64,000 nt of DNA from Candidatus Zixiibacteriota bacterium (GTDB lineage: Bacteria > Zixibacteria > MSB-5A5 > GN15 > JACZUZ01): NCBI GenBank assembly GCA_024280775.1, contig JAJRPM010000008.1, positions 1 to 64,000 of the forward strand, written 5' to 3'. Positions 25,070 to 37,400 of this stretch are shown here, one piece after another; positions within the stretch are counted from its first letter, which is position 1, and each line of letters opens with the position of its first letter. Below the pieces are notes generated by a model. It was not told the origin of the DNA, ran no database searches, and worked only from the letters and a program-made list of their open reading frames with translations. Both the position numbers and the translations under genes were made by a program.

Positions 25070-25957
25070 TCAGCGCAAGTAAATCGTGGCGTAGCGCCGG
25101 AGGGCGTCTTTTCGATGGGGCCAGTAAGGTTCAACTCCCCAATACAGGCCCGGCCAGCCGTCTTTGCGAATTCGCCAAACTTCATCGTGGATTTGCTGTA
25201 CCTGATAGTCAAGTGGTCTCAATCCATGACGTTTTGTCAGCTCTGTGCGCTGTTCCAGGTCTACTCCGTCAATGAAGACCACCGCTTTTTCATTTAGCAG
25301 AGGAAGCATATTGGCAAACATCTTTGAGGACAATTTAGGCTCGATATTTAGCAAAACATTTTGCAGAAAGAGGATGTCAGCCTTGCCGGTCTTTTCAACG
25401 AGATTTGGGTCGAGCGCATCGAGATGCGAAAATGTTACATGCTCTTTTATATTTGGACGGACTCGATATCCCGATTCGTTCTCAGAAACAAAAGTCTGAG
25501 AAATGAATTTTTCAGATAATGATTCATTGCTGAAGACTTCTTCTTTAGTGTATAGACCCTGTTGGCATCTTTCGACAAGCTCGGGGTTGATATCACCGGC
25601 AACAATCTTGAACGCCACATCCGAACGTTCATTTACAATTGACGAAGCAATTGAGTACGGCTCGGCTCCCGTTGAGCAGGCCAATACGACAATGTTGAGT
25701 GGTCGTCCGAGATTTGAAGGATCAAGAAACTCAAAGGTCGGGCCAAGCAACGCCGGAAGCTGGCTAGGGGTGCGACAAAAGCGAGTAAAAGCTTCATGAG
25801 GAGCGCGGTCGCTGGTTCTTAAGACCATCTTGTAACGCCAAACATTCATCCAATAGCGCATCGCCCGGCAAAGACGTGACTCGATAAAGAGCCGCATTAG
25901 TGGAGCCCTTTTCATTACAGATTTCAACATCTCGCTCATATTTACCTCCACCCTCAA
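25070..25957 (-). CDS. CheR-like SAM methyltransferase, paralogue 1
   Basis: 295 residues, with the catalytic-domain signature of CheR: F-T-R-F-C-R-T-P (CheR T-x-F-F-R) near 57, A-C-S-T-G-A-E-P-Y-S near 94-103, an Asp-Ile-Asn SAM-ribose motif near 122 followed by a G-L-Y-x-x-E-E-V segment, and L-F-L-Q-N-V-L-L-N (CheR F-C-R-N-V-L-I-Y) near 200. CheR methylates glutamates of chemoreceptors, but the usual N-terminal CheR helix bundle is replaced by a basic hydrophobic segment, and no chemotaxis genes are near. It is clearly paralogous to the gene at 28214. The target is unknown. It shares its strand with the propeller fusion gene upstream of it. Confidence 0.75.
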   Translation of the reverse strand: MRVEVNMSEMLKSVMKRAPLMRLFIESRLCRAMRYWMNVWRYKMVLRTSDRAPHEAFTRFCRTPSQLPALLGPTFEFLDPSNLGRPLNIVVLACSTGAEPYSIASSIVNERSDVAFKIVAGDINPELVERCQQGLYTKEEVFSNESLSEKFISQTFVSENESGYRVRPNIKEHVTFSHLDALDPNLVEKTGKADILFLQNVLLNIEPKLSSKMFANMLPLLNEKAVVFIDGVDLEQRTELTKRHGLRPLDYQVQQIHDEVWRIRKDGWPGLYWGVEPYWPHRKDALRRYATIYLR

Positions 25958-28213: not shown

Positions 28214-29182
28214 CTAGGAAGATTTTTCGTAGAAATAGACTGTGGCATAGCGACGAAGAGTGTCTTTTCTATAGGGCCAGTAGGGTTCGATTCCCCAATA
28301 CAATCCCGGCCAGCCGTTTTCGCGGATACGTCTGACTTCACTATGAATTGTTTCAACTTCGAAATCCAATGGCTTCAATCCGTGGCGCGCCGTTAGTTTT
28401 TTGCGTTGATGCACATCCATGCCATCGAGAAAAACCACTGTCTTATCATGCAATAGCTGAAGAGCATTTTCAAACATCTTAGTTGAAACTTCAGGCTGTA
28501 AGTTAAACAATACATTTTGAAGCAGGAGGATATCCGCTTTTCCGGTGGCTTCAGCTAGGTTTGGGTCTAGCGCATCAAGAACCTTGAAATTAATGCGCTC
28601 TTTGATTTCTGAACGCACACAATAATGTTCATCCAATTCGCTACCACTTAGCGGATCAAAAATACCAGCGACGATTTCATCGGTAACGAGTTTATTGCTG
28701 AACACTTCTTCAGAGGAGTATTCCCCGGCTTGGCATTTGGTAACCAGCTCCTCGTTTATATCACCGGCAACCATCTGGAAATCTATCTCCGGTCTTTTGG
28801 TCACAAGTTCAGCGGCGAACGAATAAGGTTCGGCTCCAGTCGAGCAGGCCAGTACTACGATGTGCAATGGCCTGCCTAACTTATCAGGTTGCAAGAATTT
28901 AAGCGCCGGCCCGATCAAAGCCTCCATTTGGTGTGGATTACGATAGAAACGAGTGAAAGCCTCAAGCGGCGGGCGAGAGGCAAATCTGAGCGCGTAGCGA
29001 TTGCGCAGTATATCCAGCCTGTAGCGTAGAGCGCGAATCGGTCGGGAGCGAATAATCCGCCGCAATAGTGTTGACGCTTCTAGCTCGGATTGTTCTACTG
29101 CGCCACTTGGATTCTGTTTCATTATTAGTCTCGAAAATCTTACACCATGTTCAATCTCAATCCTCCCATATATTATCGACAT
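28214..29182 (-). CDS. CheR-like SAM methyltransferase, paralogue 2
   Basis: 322 residues and close in sequence to the gene at 25070: A-C-S-T-G-A-E-P-Y-S near residue 110, G-D-I-N-E-E-L-V near 138, L-L-L-Q-N-V-L-F-N near 225 and the shared C-terminus G-W-P-G-L-Y-W-G-[IV]-E-P-Y-W-P. The last motif is not part of CheR as I know it and marks this as a separate subfamily. The N-terminal 50 residues differ from the paralogue. Several in-frame starts exist; M1 is kept, but M21 is possible. Confidence 0.75.
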   Translation of the reverse strand: MSIIYGRIEIEHGVRFSRLIMKQNPSGAVEQSELEASTLLRRIIRSRPIRALRYRLDILRNRYALRFASRPPLEAFTRFYRNPHQMEALIGPALKFLQPDKLGRPLHIVVLACSTGAEPYSFAAELVTKRPEIDFQMVAGDINEELVTKCQAGEYSSEEVFSNKLVTDEIVAGIFDPLSGSELDEHYCVRSEIKERINFKVLDALDPNLAEATGKADILLLQNVLFNLQPEVSTKMFENALQLLHDKTVVFLDGMDVHQRKKLTARHGLKPLDFEVETIHSEVRRIRENGWPGLYWGIEPYWPYRKDTLRRYATVYFYEKSS

Positions 29183-30204: not shown

Positions 30205-30573
30205 CTATTTCTTAGGAGAACGTTTCTTCTTCCGCTTCGCGGCTTGGGCCACACTAAGAGCCTTCTGTCCCCAATTCCGCAATAGTGCGTCATCCTCAAG
30301 AATATCCGCAGGCGCCTCGTAGTATTGCATCGCCCGCATATCTTCTTTGTTTGATGAGTCCTTAAACGGCATGAATGGTCCCATTCCTTGCGATTCAAAG
30401 TCTGAGCGATTGCTGTCATCTACTTTGAAATACAAAGTGTCATCAGCAATCAAAGCAAAAAAGAAACCGTCACAATAAATCCCCACGCCGCCGAACATGC
30501 TACGTGAAGTTATCTCGCCTGCAACTTCCAGGCGTTCAAGAATAAACGAGCGGTATGAATCACTAACAGCCAT
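30205..30573 (-). CDS. TfoX N-terminal-domain protein
   Basis: 122 residues with the TfoX-N core: R-S-M-F-G-G-V-G-I-Y near 23-32, F-F-A-L-I-A-D-D-T-L-Y-F-K near 38-50, and an M-x-Y-Y-E-A-P-A segment near 80. A basic tail (K-R-K-K-K-R-S-P-K-K) follows. TfoX regulates competence in Haemophilus, but stand-alone N-terminal-domain proteins are widespread and mostly uncharacterised. The ATG is 5 bases after the stop of the selenoprotein, so the two are co-transcribed. Confidence 0.85.
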   Translation of the reverse strand: MAVSDSYRSFILERLEVAGEITSRSMFGGVGIYCDGFFFALIADDTLYFKVDDSNRSDFESQGMGPFMPFKDSSNKEDMRAMQYYEAPADILEDDALLRNWGQKALSVAQAAKRKKKRSPKK

Positions 30574-30578
30574 CTTAC

Positions 30579-30926
30579 TTACAGCAGAGATTTGGAGTAG
30601 ATTTCTTCATTGAAACCCACCACCAAAGTCTTGCCGATTTTCAGGGTAGGCGCCCGCAGGTTACCAGTAGGGCCAAGCATCAGTTCTGCCAGCGTCTTGT
30701 CATCCGGTTTGGCGTTCGGCAGGTCTATTGTAGTGACAACTTTCCCCTTGCACACATGCAAAGTTTTCATGCCCACAAGTAACTCAAGCGCATCGGCGAG
30801 TTGTAGTTTTTTGCTAGCGGGGGTTATCTCTCCGCCGGAGATATTATTCGAATCCAGGAACTCCTGGGTTTTTCCACAACTGGTTCAGCCGGGGCGATGG
30901 TAACGAAAGTCAATTTTCTTTGCCAT
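30579..30926 (-). CDS. ArsC-like thioredoxin-fold selenoprotein (UGA = selenocysteine)
   Basis: 115 residues when the TGA at codon 14 (30885-30887) is read as selenocysteine. The N-terminus then reads ...R-Y-H-R-P-G-U-T-S-C-G-K-T-Q-E-F-L, a U-x-x-C redox motif (U14, C17) exactly where ArsC/Spx-like thioredoxin-fold proteins carry C-x-x-C. The C-terminal half has the family signature G-P-T-G-N-L-R-A-P-T and V-G-F-N-E-E. Both sides of the TGA are in one frame, from the ATG at 30926 to the TAA at 30579. A SECIS-like hairpin follows the UGA. Routine gene calling would start at an internal Met and lose the active site. It lies 28 bases after the stop of the large secreted protein and 5 before TfoX. 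It is probably a thiol/selenol oxidoreductase; arsenate reduction is not implied. Confidence 0.88.
30854..30887 (-). promoter_or_regulatory. Sec UGA codon and bacterial SECIS-like hairpin
   Basis: On the minus strand the UGA (30885-30887) is followed after 22 nt by an apical loop AGUU (30859-30862) closed by the stem CCAGG/CCUGG (30854-30858 with 30863-30867). Bacterial SECIS elements lie inside the coding region, 16-37 nt after UGA, with a conserved G among the first loop bases; this one fits. It would recruit SelB. Confidence 0.72.
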
Positions 30927-30954: not shown

Positions 30955-33678
30955 TCACATAATCAATACGAATTTACCCAATTGCGTGGAGCCATCAGGA
31001 GTTTCAATTACAAAATAGTAAATACCTGATACGGCTATCTGCAAGTTGCGCGTAATCAAGTCCCACGATTCATGCATTGCTGTTGCACCTCTGGCAGGCT
31101 CATTGTGTTGGATTTGCTTGAGTAAATCTCCATCAAGGGAATAAATCAAGATAGTGCATTCAGGTGGGAGGTTAATAAAATTAAGAGCGCGTGTTCTCTC
31201 CGGCAGGAAATCCTCTCTGCCGCGTCCTTCAAATCCGTCGTCACGATAATTGCCGTCAATGCGATACGGATTAGGGTAGACAATAACATTGAGCTCCTCG
31301 GCGGGTTTCTGTGTCACCCTGTCGAAGGCAAACATCTCCACCGCGGTACGCACAGGGTTCGTTTCCAGGAACGGAAGATTCGCGCCTTGAGAGCCGAAAT
31401 CAAAAGCCGTTACCGAGGCATAGTACAGTTGCGAAGCCAATAGATTACGAGCGATAAAACGATACTCAAAATATTTGAAACGTTCACCATCGGGAGTAAG
31501 CTCACCGCCCTTGTAGAAAGTAGTGGCGCCAGTCAATGGATTCGTATAGAGTGAATCGTCAGTGAAAGCAGAATCGAGGTTGAGCGTATGTGGAAAGGGA
31601 GCGTTGGGATAGATTTTATGAATTCCGTTAAGGTCAGATAGATCACTTTGATTGAAGTCTTGTTTGGCAAAATAGAATGTAGAGTCACCTATCTGCAAAG
31701 GGTGGTCTATTCCATTTGCTGTTGGCTCGTAGTCACGATTTCCATTCGCATAAATGTCCTGCACTTCGGTTTTGGAAAACGGCTTGTGTAAAATCACCCA
31801 GCGTCCGCTGGCGCCCAACAGAGGATTGAAATAGAATTGCGTAAAATCTTCAAAATCATAGGACGCTTGCAACACCAAGCCCACTGCAGATCTTTCCAGG
31901 CCGAGATACACCCTATAGCCCTCAAAATCCACTTCCCCACTAAATACATCCGGTGTTGTCTCCGAACGAATACCATTCCATTCAATAACAATTTGCCCCA
32001 ACGTGGGTTCGAAACGAACATCAGGTGATGGAGGTGGGGATGCGGCTCGGAGGTCTGGCACACCGTCACCAGTGTAGAAAATTGTATCTGCCGAAAGAGC
32101 GCCTTCGAAGGTGTCGATTACAGTAGTAGTCTCTGGAGGTGATACGGTTGTGTCTACCAGAATCGTAGTGTCAATAATCACGCCAGTGGCATTTACGCAG
32201 ATACGAAACTCGCCACTATAACCGTCATCGTCAGTGTCCACTCCCGGGTTGTCGTATATCCATTTTGCCCAATTTACGTTCTTGAGGAGGTCATCCCAGT
32301 TGAGTTTGTCCATGAATTCCTGGGGATTGAATGGGTCAATGGCATTTTCAACATCGACATGGAAATTCTCACCGCCGACAAGCGCTATTGCAAAATGCGC
32401 TTTTGCCTGAGGTTGCAGTTGGATTGGGCCGAATGATATCAGGTCATAATGATGATTGTGATTTCCAAAACCCGGTCCCAGCGCTATAGCCAGGGAATTA
32501 TCACTCGGAGGAAACCAGCCTTCAGAGCTGTGGTCTATGGCGCTGAAAATCTGGTCATAATCAAACTCTCCGCTGGACATCACATAGTACCGGTTCTTAT
32601 CCCCACTGGGAGTGCCGAAGATTCCGGCCATATTACGGAATGGTTTTTCTGCTGTCCCTCTTAGCCTTGGTCCCCAGTCTCTCGGGCCGCGGTCGCTGTC
32701 ATCCCACCAGTTATAGGAAATAGTCAAAGTGTCCGACGGAAGTTGCAGGAGCTTAATCGCGGTTACCGAAGTAGGGTCTCCTTCACCAAAAGTAGTCTGA
32801 CCGGTCGTCGGATTTCCGTCATTATCAGCGGCCCACCACAACGCTATGCTATCGATGTATTCGCATGAAGTCGGTTTCAATGAAAATGCAGGCGCTGTGG
32901 CTTTGTAGCCGGCTATCAAGTCCAAATCGAAGCCGCCGCGGACTTCCAGCCCTATGTATGCGGCGTCGATTGTTCTTGAGCCTATGTTTGTTATGAGGTA
33001 GTCGATAATAATGAAATCTTCGGCAAACTCGAAACTCCAGGCGTAGCTTGTTTGCTTAACCCGCAGGTTCAACGGAACATGTGGTCGGCTGTCGAAATCA
33101 TCGGTTCCGGTAAAGAACGGATCAACCAAAGTGTCATAGTATACAAAACTGATGTCTTGCTCAGATGAGGCGCTTTCACCTAGTACCCCAGTATCTAAGA
33201 TGCTCTTGACACTGAAGCCCTCCTTGTTGGTGATTTGACTTTCAAGAGTCGCCGGCCAAAACTCGATTACATTAGTGACCAATGTGTCACGGCCAACAAC
33301 TCCTCCTACCCACAAATGCGGAGTAGGATAAATGCGACCAGTGTTGCGCGGGAATGACATAAACTCCACAGCATTCAAACCACCGGCGCCGTATACGTCC
33401 GGCCCGATTATGCCATTGTTCTTGAGCGTGACAACATAGTTGTTGATGTTATGGGTGATTATATCAACAAATGGCGCCTCGCTGGCAGTAGTGCGAAGTT
33501 GAACTGTCGATGGTTTTGGGTGTGAGTGTCCGGGATAAACCGAGACAGCATAAGTGGATTCAGCAACAGAAAACAGCGATAACAAGCAGGCCAATATCCA
33601 AGCGCTACCGACTCTAAGCCGGCCTGGCGCAGAACTAGTACAACAAATAGGTAGCAATGTCGCCTTTGCAGAAATCAT
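30955..33678 (-). CDS. Large secreted beta-rich protein with variant C-terminal sorting domain
   Basis: 907 residues from the ATG at 33678 (a TTG 32 codons earlier lacks a ribosome site). The N-terminus is Met, polar/basic residues, then a hydrophobic core (about 27-42) ending at A-V-S, a long signal peptide. The body holds beta-sandwich segments with Asp-rich loops and an Asp-rich D-T-D-D-D-G-Y-S stretch. The C-terminus has V-Y-P-N-P-Y-R-I-D near residue 803 and ends G-K-F-V-L-I-M, the FlgD-like/T9SS-type sorting layout found in secreted proteins of this bacterial group. There is no catalytic motif. It is the first gene of a run with the selenoprotein and TfoX-like gene. Confidence 0.72.
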   Translation of the reverse strand: MISAKATLLPICCTSSAPGRLRVGSAWILACLLSLFSVAESTYAVSVYPGHSHPKPSTVQLRTTASEAPFVDIITHNINNYVVTLKNNGIIGPDVYGAGGLNAVEFMSFPRNTGRIYPTPHLWVGGVVGRDTLVTNVIEFWPATLESQITNKEGFSVKSILDTGVLGESASSEQDISFVYYDTLVDPFFTGTDDFDSRPHVPLNLRVKQTSYAWSFEFAEDFIIIDYLITNIGSRTIDAAYIGLEVRGGFDLDLIAGYKATAPAFSLKPTSCEYIDSIALWWAADNDGNPTTGQTTFGEGDPTSVTAIKLLQLPSDTLTISYNWWDDSDRGPRDWGPRLRGTAEKPFRNMAGIFGTPSGDKNRYYVMSSGEFDYDQIFSAIDHSSEGWFPPSDNSLAIALGPGFGNHNHHYDLISFGPIQLQPQAKAHFAIALVGGENFHVDVENAIDPFNPQEFMDKLNWDDLLKNVNWAKWIYDNPGVDTDDDGYSGEFRICVNATGVIIDTTILVDTTVSPPETTTVIDTFEGALSADTIFYTGDGVPDLRAASPPPSPDVRFEPTLGQIVIEWNGIRSETTPDVFSGEVDFEGYRVYLGLERSAVGLVLQASYDFEDFTQFYFNPLLGASGRWVILHKPFSKTEVQDIYANGNRDYEPTANGIDHPLQIGDSTFYFAKQDFNQSDLSDLNGIHKIYPNAPFPHTLNLDSAFTDDSLYTNPLTGATTFYKGGELTPDGERFKYFEYRFIARNLLASQLYYASVTAFDFGSQGANLPFLETNPVRTAVEMFAFDRVTQKPAEELNVIVYPNPYRIDGNYRDDGFEGRGREDFLPERTRALNFINLPPECTILIYSLDGDLLKQIQHNEPARGATAMHESWDLITRNLQIAVSGIYYFVIETPDGSTQLGKFVLIM

Positions 33679-33868
33679 TTTCCGCACAAGTCGCTCTCCG
33701 CTGATAGCGCCAATATGAAAATAGATTTCGTTGATCGCATATACCAAAATACCCAAAGTACAAGCATTGGTCAAGAGAGGAGATACGGTAATTGGATAGG
33801 GTGTAGGACGGAGAGTCTCAAGAAGTAGAGACGTGGCAATAACTTACATGAGTGTGCGTAGTTACGAA

Positions 33869-36061
33869 TCAAATGCTTTGCAGGTCAAAGAGGAAGTCCC
33901 GGGCCCATTTATTAACTGTTTGGTGCGAGATTTTCTTGAGCATGGCCTGGTGCCGGTCAATCCGCTCCTCCAGAGACATTTCCAGCGCCAGCGCGATTCC
34001 CTGAGCGGTGTCTTCTGGTAGATATGGGTTCACGATTACGGCCTCCTCAAGTTCCTCGACGGCCCCTGCGAAACGTGACAGAACCAAAGTCCCCGGATTA
34101 TCCGGATACTGAGCGGCGATATATTCTTTCGCGACCAAATTCATTCCGTCCCGCAACGGTGTCACCAGCCCTACGCGCGAATCGCGATAGAACTCGGTCA
34201 ATTTGTCTTGAGTGTAGGTGCGGTACAAGTAACGAATCGGCTCCCAGTCATGTTCGCCCATTTCTCCATTGATACGACCCACCAGCGAGTCCATACGTTG
34301 CTTTTGCTCAATGTACTCCGGGACTTGAGTCCGTGACGGCGAACTGATTTGCATAAATGAAATCTTCTTGCGCAATTTGGGATTGGTGCTCAGCAGTTTT
34401 TCGAAAGCCAGGATTCTTTCGGGCATTCCCTTGGTGTAATCGAGTCTGTCCACCCCGATAATTATTTCGCGTCCTCCGAATGAATCGCGTAGTGATTTCT
34501 TGCGTGGGTTTCTGTCCGCAAAAGTGGAATCCGGCAGGAAACGATTCACATCAATGCCAATCGGATATGCGCCCACACGTTGGAACCTTTCGCCTGTGCG
34601 CAATACATATCCGTCCCACTCCGAGCCTAGCGCACGCTTGCAGGCCTGTACGTAATTATCCATATAAGTGCGCGTCTGAAAACCAATCAAATCAAATTCC
34701 TGCATCGCCAGCAGGAAGCGCATGAAGTCCGGCAAAATCGCCAAATTGTCCAGCGAAGGAAAAGGAATATGCAGGAAGAAACCCAAACGTCCGCCCCAGC
34801 CTGCCTGACGTAGTTCGTCGCCTAGCAACATCAGGTGATAATCATGCGCCCAAACCAAATCGTTCTCTTGTAGCTGTGGAATCAATTGATTGGCGAACAT
34901 AGCATTGACCGAACGATACACCTCCAATTGCCAGCCTGACATTTTTGCTAGAGTAGGGAAATTGTGGAATAGCGGCCAAATAGTGTTATTGCAAAAACCA
35001 TTGTAATATGCCTCGTATTCACGACTCGTCAAATCCACTCCCATCAGGCGCAAATTACCTTCGGGAGCGTCTTGAATATTTGGCGCGCGACGAGTCTTCA
35101 AAGTCTTGCCGCTCCAGCCCATCCATAGACCACCGGCTTCACTTTGAGAAAGAGCAGCTTCCAGGGCCGTTGCCAATCCGCCAACTGGTTTACGGCGGCC
35201 TCCCTGTGCGTCTTTTTCCAGAGCAGGTAGACGATTGGAAATAACAACCAGACGAGATTTTCTGCGAGAAGCAGTGAATCTGCTTCGACCGTGTGTTACC
35301 GCCTGATGCCAGCGTCGCAAGAACACTTCAACTTCTTCTTGAGTTTCAAGATAACCCTGTGCGGCAGAATCCGAGGCGTCACTGCCAACTTTGACACCGA
35401 CCCCGCGTCCGGAAATTGTCTTGAAAGCGTCCTCATCGGTGTCATCATCGCCAAGATAAACCGCGAATACATCAGGAGAGGATTCCGCCAGAAGAATATC
35501 CACCGCTGTGCCCTTGTGATAGCGCCGCGAGCGTAACTCGACTCCACCATTGAACGCGCGGCATTCTAGGTCAAATTTTTCCGCAATTGGCGTGTAAATA
35601 TTCCAGGAGAGTTCTTCGACTTCAAGGCTCTTGTCTGGCTCCAGTCCGCGCACGTGCACCGCTATGCTCGCAGGTTTCAACTCCAGAAATTCCTCAAGCC
35701 CCACAGATGTAGCGGCATTCTTGGCCGCCTCAAGACCTGCGATTTCTTTTTCGGAAAGCTCCTGACGTGTCAATACGCCGTCCACAGTTGAGCGCTCGAA
35801 TCCATGAGCGCCGAAAACTTCCACATTCAAATCATCAAGTAAAGTGCGGACCTGCTGAGTAGGACGACCGGAAACCAACACTATGCGTGTGTGACCGGCC
35901 TCTAAAATTTCTGTGAGAATTTTGACAGTAGACTCAGGAGGGCGCGCCTGCATACGAAGCACATGAAACGGAGCTAGTGTGCCGTCATAATCAAGCATTA
36001 GCATTCGCTCACTAGCGGAATGCGCGCGCTCCCAGAATCCATCAGGGAGACTTGATAACAT
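33869..36061 (-). CDS. Trehalose-6-phosphate phosphatase-synthase fusion (OtsB-OtsA order)
   Basis: 730 residues making trehalose 6-phosphate from UDP-glucose and glucose 6-phosphate and then dephosphorylating it. The N-terminal HAD phosphatase (about 1-260) has D24-Y-D26-G-T and L-G-D-D-D-T-D-E-D near 205. The C-terminal GT20 synthase (about 268-730) has I-S-N-R-L-P, W-A-H-D-Y-H-L, D-R-L-D-Y-T-K-G and R-D-G-M-N-L-V-A-K-E-Y. Most natural fusions have the synthase first; here the phosphatase is first. The ATG at 36061 follows AAAGGA by 7 bases and leaves a 25-base gap after treT, so I prefer it to the upstream frame opening at 36112. Confidence 0.9.
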   Translation of the reverse strand: MLSSLPDGFWERAHSASERMLMLDYDGTLAPFHVLRMQARPPESTVKILTEILEAGHTRIVLVSGRPTQQVRTLLDDLNVEVFGAHGFERSTVDGVLTRQELSEKEIAGLEAAKNAATSVGLEEFLELKPASIAVHVRGLEPDKSLEVEELSWNIYTPIAEKFDLECRAFNGGVELRSRRYHKGTAVDILLAESSPDVFAVYLGDDDTDEDAFKTISGRGVGVKVGSDASDSAAQGYLETQEEVEVFLRRWHQAVTHGRSRFTASRRKSRLVVISNRLPALEKDAQGGRRKPVGGLATALEAALSQSEAGGLWMGWSGKTLKTRRAPNIQDAPEGNLRLMGVDLTSREYEAYYNGFCNNTIWPLFHNFPTLAKMSGWQLEVYRSVNAMFANQLIPQLQENDLVWAHDYHLMLLGDELRQAGWGGRLGFFLHIPFPSLDNLAILPDFMRFLLAMQEFDLIGFQTRTYMDNYVQACKRALGSEWDGYVLRTGERFQRVGAYPIGIDVNRFLPDSTFADRNPRKKSLRDSFGGREIIIGVDRLDYTKGMPERILAFEKLLSTNPKLRKKISFMQISSPSRTQVPEYIEQKQRMDSLVGRINGEMGEHDWEPIRYLYRTYTQDKLTEFYRDSRVGLVTPLRDGMNLVAKEYIAAQYPDNPGTLVLSRFAGAVEELEEAVIVNPYLPEDTAQGIALALEMSLEERIDRHQAMLKKISHQTVNKWARDFLFDLQSI

Positions 36062-36086
36062 CCTGTTTTCCTTTGCGCTGGTAGAG

Positions 36087-37400
36087 CTATAGTTCAATGC
36101 GTGAGCTGTCACCTTTCCGGAGGCCGAGCATCAGAGTCAAATAGTCACGGAGATGACGAGTAATCAAGAAATGTTCGCGCACAAAATTTCGCGCGGTTGC
36201 GCCCATCTCCAAGGCTAATTTGGGACGTGTGAGCAAATAACGCAAACGAAAAGCGGCGCCTTCTGGAGTATCCACCAGAAATCCTGTGTGGTAATCAACG
36301 ATTTGCAGAGTAATACCGCCGGTATTCCCGCCAATAACCGGCTTGCCCTTCCACATAGCTTCGGTAACTGTCAGCCCGAAACCCTCTTTGGTGGATTTTT
36401 GCAGGACAATATCAGCGGCTCTTTGCAAAGCGTTGATTGTCCCGTGCGCATCCGGTGGCAGAGACAAAATATGAATATCCGGGTCCCCATCTGCGGCGTT
36501 ATGCACAGCCGCCAACACCTCAGCGCCTTCCGGGTCATCAGAGGCGGTTCCTCCGGCTAAAACCAGTTGCAGTGGCAAATGTTTCTTCGCCAGACGATAG
36601 GCCTCGATTACACCGACCGGGTCTTTGAACCAGTCAAAACGCGAGACCTGCAATATCATCGGTCTTTGCGGATCAATTCCGAAACACATCCGAATTTTCG
36701 TCACTTCATCATCCGGCAAGTCGATATTCTTAGGGCTAAGAGGATCAATGCTGGGCGGGATCAGATACTGTGGATGTGGCAATGGCTGAGCGAAATTCGC
36801 CAGCGAGAAAATGCTCGCGTCATAGGGCTCAAGGTATTGACGCAAATAGCGCCAAATCGGTCGATGGGGACGACTTGCGTCTATGTGACAGCGCCATATC
36901 CATTTGGCGTTTGTCTTTGCCGATTTACCATCGGCTTCAGACATCAGAGCCAACAGCGGAGCCGGTTGGGGGTCATGAATGATTACATAGTCCGCTTCAG
37001 CAAGAGTATCGGCTAATCGTGCGAAATTCGTTTTGTTGACTTGATAATGCGCATCAAGTAGAGCTTTCGGAACATCAACTGCGTTGCCTTGCAGTCCGTT
37101 GTGAAATCCTTTGGTGGCCTGAAAAAAATCATCATTGCCTTCAATGACCTCCCAACTGGCCTCAAGCCCTAATTCTCCCATGACTGGGATCATTTGTTCA
37201 AGAATCTCAGCGACTCCACCCCCGGTGCGGGTGGAATTGACATGTACGATCTTTTTGCCTTCGAGTGGTCGGGCCAACATTCGCAACTGATCAACCACTT
37301 CAGCGCCAACAACCTCAGCATAGGCCGCCAGACGGGAGGCGGGCGCAGGTGTGTTTTCGGCTATGTTTCTCTGAGTGGCTTTAGATATTGAGGAAGGCAT
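36087..37400 (-). CDS. treT: Trehalose synthase, GT4 type (TreT-like)
   Basis: 437 residues, a retaining GT-B glycosyltransferase. It has H-V-N-S-T-R-T-G-G-G-V-A-E-I near residue 52, a nucleotide-sugar site V-L-A-G-G-T-A-S-D-D-P-E-G near 270, and the E-x7-E segment (K-E-G-F-G-L-T-V-T-E-A) near 345. This matches TreT, which joins NDP-glucose and glucose to give trehalose directly. It overlaps the DUF5752 stop by 20 bases and precedes the OtsBA fusion by 25, forming a trehalose operon with two routes. CAGGA lies 7 bases before the ATG. Confidence 0.85.
   Translation of the reverse strand: MPSSISKATQRNIAENTPAPASRLAAYAEVVGAEVVDQLRMLARPLEGKKIVHVNSTRTGGGVAEILEQMIPVMGELGLEASWEVIEGNDDFFQATKGFHNGLQGNAVDVPKALLDAHYQVNKTNFARLADTLAEADYVIIHDPQPAPLLALMSEADGKSAKTNAKWIWRCHIDASRPHRPIWRYLRQYLEPYDASIFSLANFAQPLPHPQYLIPPSIDPLSPKNIDLPDDEVTKIRMCFGIDPQRPMILQVSRFDWFKDPVGVIEAYRLAKKHLPLQLVLAGGTASDDPEGAEVLAAVHNAADGDPDIHILSLPPDAHGTINALQRAADIVLQKSTKEGFGLTVTEAMWKGKPVIGGNTGGITLQIVDYHTGFLVDTPEGAAFRLRYLLTRPKLALEMGATARNFVREHFLITRHLRDYLTLMLGLRKGDSSRIEL

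Follow-up and report, generated by a model that had tools for sequence, protein, structure and literature searches.

An ArsC-related selenoprotein of family NF041106 encoded in a Zixibacteria genome

ArsC-like selenoproteins have been on record since 2006. One such family, NCBIfam NF041106 (ArsC_rel_Se_1, 'ArsC family (seleno)protein'), is listed as an 'arsenate reductase-like protein, UxxC' selenoprotein (PMC13188914, PMC9312934), and PMC13188914 takes its origin back to the Global Ocean Sampling survey (PMC2398784). The window, by which is meant the whole 64,000-nucleotide stretch of DNA that was analysed, carries a further member of this family.

Reading frame, family membership and relatives

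The ArsC_rel_Se_1 gene lies on the minus strand at 30579..30926, where an ATG is followed by a TGA at codon 14, by 101 more codons and by a TAA. Translation of 30926-30579 (-) gives MAKKIDFRYHRPG*TSCGKTQEF...SLL*, in which the codon-14 TGA (30887-30885) is the sole internal stop, in agreement with the single interrupted frame described in the initial annotation. If the in-frame UGA (30885..30887, minus strand) is read as selenocysteine (Sec), the product has 115 residues, with Sec at position 14 and at the first position of a U-T-S-C motif. The Sec-read protein matches positions 1-107 of the 107 in NF041106 with 115.6 bits, above the curated cut-off of 85 bits, and the family is therefore already known; the same model is matched by each of the 14 members of alignment A1. 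The initial annotation was right about a selenoprotein with an ArsC-like fold, and made no mention of the existing family. The gene provides a clean case of a gene truncated by ordinary ORF calling, and is otherwise unremarkable for a bacterium that uses selenium.

The selenoprotein gene sits between two neighbours on the same strand. The upstream gene (30955..33774, minus strand) encodes a 939-aa, probably secreted protein that has no Pfam match, and it terminates in an ordinary TGA stop about 30 nt ahead of the selenoprotein start. The downstream gene (30205..30573, minus strand) encodes a TfoX_N-domain protein (PF04993, 99.2 bits) that is not part of the Sec system. Both genes recur beside the selenoprotein gene only in a same-genus relative (congener L066), which bears out the caution, expressed at the outset, that the operon neighbours are not known Sec partners. 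Clustering of the neighbours at about 96 loci revealed no partner kept across phyla; the clusters that do recur include at most ten loci, in mixed positions and on mixed strands, and resemble families widespread in Planctomycetes, the dominant group in the set. Elsewhere on the minus strand of the window, adjacent trehalose genes (33869-36112 and 36087-37400) encode a fused trehalose-phosphatase/GT20 synthase and a TreT-type trehalose synthase, and two paralogous CheR-type methyltransferases are encoded close together (25070-25957 and 28214-29182).

Relatives were collected by a pattern scan of genome contigs. A single sequence used as the query found no relatives, whereas the alignment-based scan gave 499, and the 80 most similar were kept. 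By their record names, the relatives come from Planctomycetes, Acidobacteria, Gammaproteobacteria, Myxococcales, Entotheonella, Nitrospinae, Gemmatimonadetes and others. The 80 were combined with the Zixibacteria loci, and a duplicate and a frameshifted locus were removed, to give a comparison set of 96 relatives and the window. NF041106 is thus widespread, 499 relatives matching the pattern in a single collection of genomes, and Sec is almost fixed in it. A plasmid search with the protein returned no match. One member, L030 (G031:C345), is split across two frames near its 5' end, probably by an assembly indel; its TAA at the codon is due only to the frameshift, and the 5' piece has TGA.

Fold and predicted function

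The ArsC/Spx thioredoxin fold proposed in the initial annotation is confirmed by a Pfam match, a structural model and PDB matches by both sequence and fold. Pfam PF03960 (ArsC) matches the window protein with 26.3 bits, above the gathering cut-off of 24. An AlphaFold2 model from 48 sequences (pLDDT 93.9) places Sec14 immediately ahead of helix 1 (residues 15-26). The closest solved structures are those of Spx, ArsC-related proteins and YffB, with modest Foldseek TM-scores of 0.52-0.57 for matches at E up to 0.001. Thirteen residues are invariant across the 48 sequences (Y9, R11, U14, G61, G85, T87, G88, L90, R91, A92, P93, G98 and G104), and the invariant Arg-Ala-Pro (R91-A92-P93) corresponds to the Arg-Pro motif of Spx. 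The residue three after Sec is Cys in nearly all relatives and Ser in four (L023, L027, L045 and L145).

The best overall explanation, held with high confidence, is a genuine NF041106 selenoprotein, probably a small stand-alone Sec-dependent thiol/selenol reductase. The fold and the residue conservation favour, with reasonable likelihood, a stand-alone reductase rather than a regulator, and the 115-residue protein is probably cytosolic. Sequence and comparison indicate that SelB and Sec-tRNA bind a hairpin just 3' of UGA-14 and that Sec is inserted, yielding a 115-residue thioredoxin-fold protein of the ArsC/Spx branch. In the proposed mechanism, Sec would make the attack, with the helix and an Arg activating it and a cis-Pro loop lying opposite, as in thioredoxin-fold reductases. 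The selenolate could then attack a disulfide, an oxidised thiol or an oxyanion-type substrate. Where the motif is U-x-x-C, Cys17 would resolve the intermediate; in the minority with U-x-x-S, an outside thiol would do so. The variability of the residue at +3 suggests that an outside thiol serves for resolution in some members.

There is a slim chance that NF041106 performs a selenium-dependent reaction not known for other ArsC/Spx-fold proteins. Many phyla retain Sec, whereas the resolving Cys is dispensable, so on this slim-chance reading the protein may act as a monoselenol on a small molecule or metalloid and not by the usual disulfide exchange.

The selenoprotein might instead act as an Spx-like redox-sensing transcription regulator, with a U14-C17 selenylsulfide switch, and not as an enzyme. 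Spx entries are the best PDB matches by sequence and by fold, the C-x-x-C of Spx aligns with U14-x-x-C17, and the Arg-Pro motifs are aligned. However, the window protein reaches only 29.9 bits against the Spx/MgsR model TIGR01617, under the cut-off of 75.05, and a gap of four residues opens in the profile alignment around Spx positions 48-51, next to Gly52. Gly52 of Spx is needed for binding the RNA polymerase alpha C-terminal domain. Moreover, the four forms with Ser for the second Cys could not make a U14-C17 switch, and a regulatory role is considered improbable.

A Sec-containing arsenate reductase would fit both the Pfam ArsC score and the reviews that term the family arsenate reductase-like (PMC9312934, PMC13188914). 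The model for glutaredoxin-coupled arsenate reductase, TIGR00014, argues against such an enzyme, in that the window protein is unmatched at E up to 0.1 and only 1 of the 14 members tested matches, weakly; nor does a partner of any kind recur beside the gene across phyla. Judged from sequence, arsenate reduction therefore seems a doubtful function. A Pfam ArsC search of the bacterium's own genome reported no ArsC copy, yet the same search missed the window gene too, so that a paralogue may likewise have escaped it.

Recoding of the UGA codon

The initial annotation had inferred the Sec machinery, and selA, selB, selC and selD are all found in the bacterium's own genome (3.17 Mb in 17 contigs, 97.5% complete). 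There selB scores above cut-off and is adjoined by selA (478.5 bits), the tRNA-Sec gene (selC) scores 64.5 bits, above its gathering score of 47, and has the anticodon TCA (UCA in RNA), and selD scores 387.7 bits at G000:C15:182497-183417 (L034). The selD gene is itself a selenoprotein gene, with an in-frame TGA in SCAGUASK followed by the hairpin GGCCAAC-GGU-GUUGGCC. Of 133 Zixibacteria genomes, 114 have selB above cut-off and 18 have NF041106 above cut-off.

TGA is found at the Sec codon in 96 of 96 relatives, from several phyla, as well as in the window (94 distinct sequences). The peptide pattern of the scan lies far from Sec and so did not itself select for TGA, but limiting the set to the 80 closest may have tilted it towards Sec forms. 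A read error at the TGA, which the initial annotation had named as grounds for refutation, can be dismissed because the TGA recurs in the congener and in 95 further relatives. Single-stop frames are not rare in themselves, but a pseudogene, a sequencing error or a chance in-frame stop is refuted by the comparison of relatives, with TGA at the same codon across phyla, Cys instead in nine others and a coding frame conserved on either side, and retains a negligible probability. Genome-wide reassignment of TGA, to Trp or Gly for instance, in place of recoding by SelB drew no supporting evidence and is likewise extremely unlikely: the adjacent upstream gene uses TGA as its stop, so TGA is not globally reassigned, and the presence of selB and of a tRNA-Sec with a UCA anticodon, as well as replacement by Cys, also contradict it.

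The forms with Cys come from a Planctomycetes-centred sample of 294 genomes, from the phylum of a planctomycete. The sample contains 65 matches above cut-off; 55 of them have one TGA and the other 10 are free of stops. In 9 of the 10 stop-free members Cys is found precisely at the Sec position, which answers the proposal to look for Cys in homologues; the solved Spx structures also have Cys there. A second copy in one genome, L154 (G189:C12:140623-140940), has neither Sec nor Cys at the position (RSSDATC), and that genome also has a TGA copy. selB is above cut-off in 10/10 TGA genomes as compared to 3/10 stop-free genomes (Fisher p = 0.003, a value that overstates independence, as the genomes compared are related), and 12/12 further TGA genomes from several phyla have selB. 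In this sample, therefore, a change from Sec to Cys accompanies loss of selB, which provides natural Sec/Cys pairs with which to test the contribution of selenium.

In bacterial SECIS elements a G occupies loop position 1 or 2, and the loop lies about 16-37 nt past the UGA. The hairpin CCAGG-AGUU-CCUGG (30854..30867, minus strand; loop 30862-30859, loop G 30861) has both features: the AGUU loop lies 22 nt past the UGA, beginning at +23, and its second position is a G at +24. The initial annotation had pointed to this hairpin, which is present and is conserved in relatives. The hairpin region of the window folds with -8.2 kcal/mol; synonymous recodings that encode the same peptide average -2.2, and 0.5% of them do as well. 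For the 94 distinct sequences, the region from +13 to +36 past the TGA has a mean of -8.9 kcal/mol versus -3.3 in synonymous recodings, and recodings that fold as well make up at most 5% in 69 of the 94 and at most 20% in 92. In eight Cys members the mean is -4.0 kcal/mol and the SECIS hairpin is not kept.

Compensatory changes were assessed in the 61 sequences that share the commonest hairpin register. Pairing in the six-pair helix reaches 95.6%, and double-changed cells number 16 versus 1.8 in shuffles; the covariation score was attained by 0/500 shuffles, and pairing falls to 23-64% if the helix is slid. The double changes are confined to two of the six pairs because the peptide also constrains these codons. 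The register moves by about one base between subgroups, and L027 and L045 keep an AGUU-loop hairpin despite a differing peptide, with the loop G shifted one base. An Rfam scan of the region gave two chance-level matches under the gathering score and no SECIS family. In the SECIS check suggested for 30845-30887, the segment folded alone prefers another pairing and does not clearly outdo shuffles (z-score -1.4), whereas the comparative data support the element. At the level of sequence, it is the comparative data, rather than the folding of 30845-30887 alone, that prove the SECIS.

In short, the initial claim of a real selenoprotein is supported by the machinery, the conserved TGA, the Cys forms, the hairpin and the NF041106 match, and the window gene almost certainly encodes one.

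Comparison with known systems

Spx from Bacillus and Staphylococcus (PDB 1z3e, 6gho) shares with the window protein the fold, a C-x-x-C aligned to U-x-x-C and an Arg-Pro near the C-terminus. The window protein differs in that Sec replaces the first Cys, the score falls under the Spx/MgsR cut-off, a gap lies beside the polymerase-binding loop, and the second Cys is not always kept in the family. The UxxS-class ArsC-type selenoproteins ('Arsenate reductase (ArsC) 1' in PMC2398784) carry Sec at the catalytic site of the same Pfam ArsC fold, and four of the relatives compared here share their U-x-x-S motif. The window protein, by contrast, has U-x-x-C and falls into NF041106, a separate subfamily.

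A second ArsC/Spx-fold group with an in-frame TGA (GKFTUTSC) is found in other Zixibacteria genomes (L055, L056, L058, L059 and L062). The two members tested fall under both the NF041106 and the Spx/MgsR cut-offs and an AGUU-type hairpin is present in 4/5, such that the group may be an unmodelled selenoprotein subfamily.

The closest system is NF041106 itself. The window protein covers the whole 107-position model, with the U-x-x-C motif and the Sec position alike, and nothing essential differs; it is a Zixibacteria member whose identity even to its congener is just 63%.
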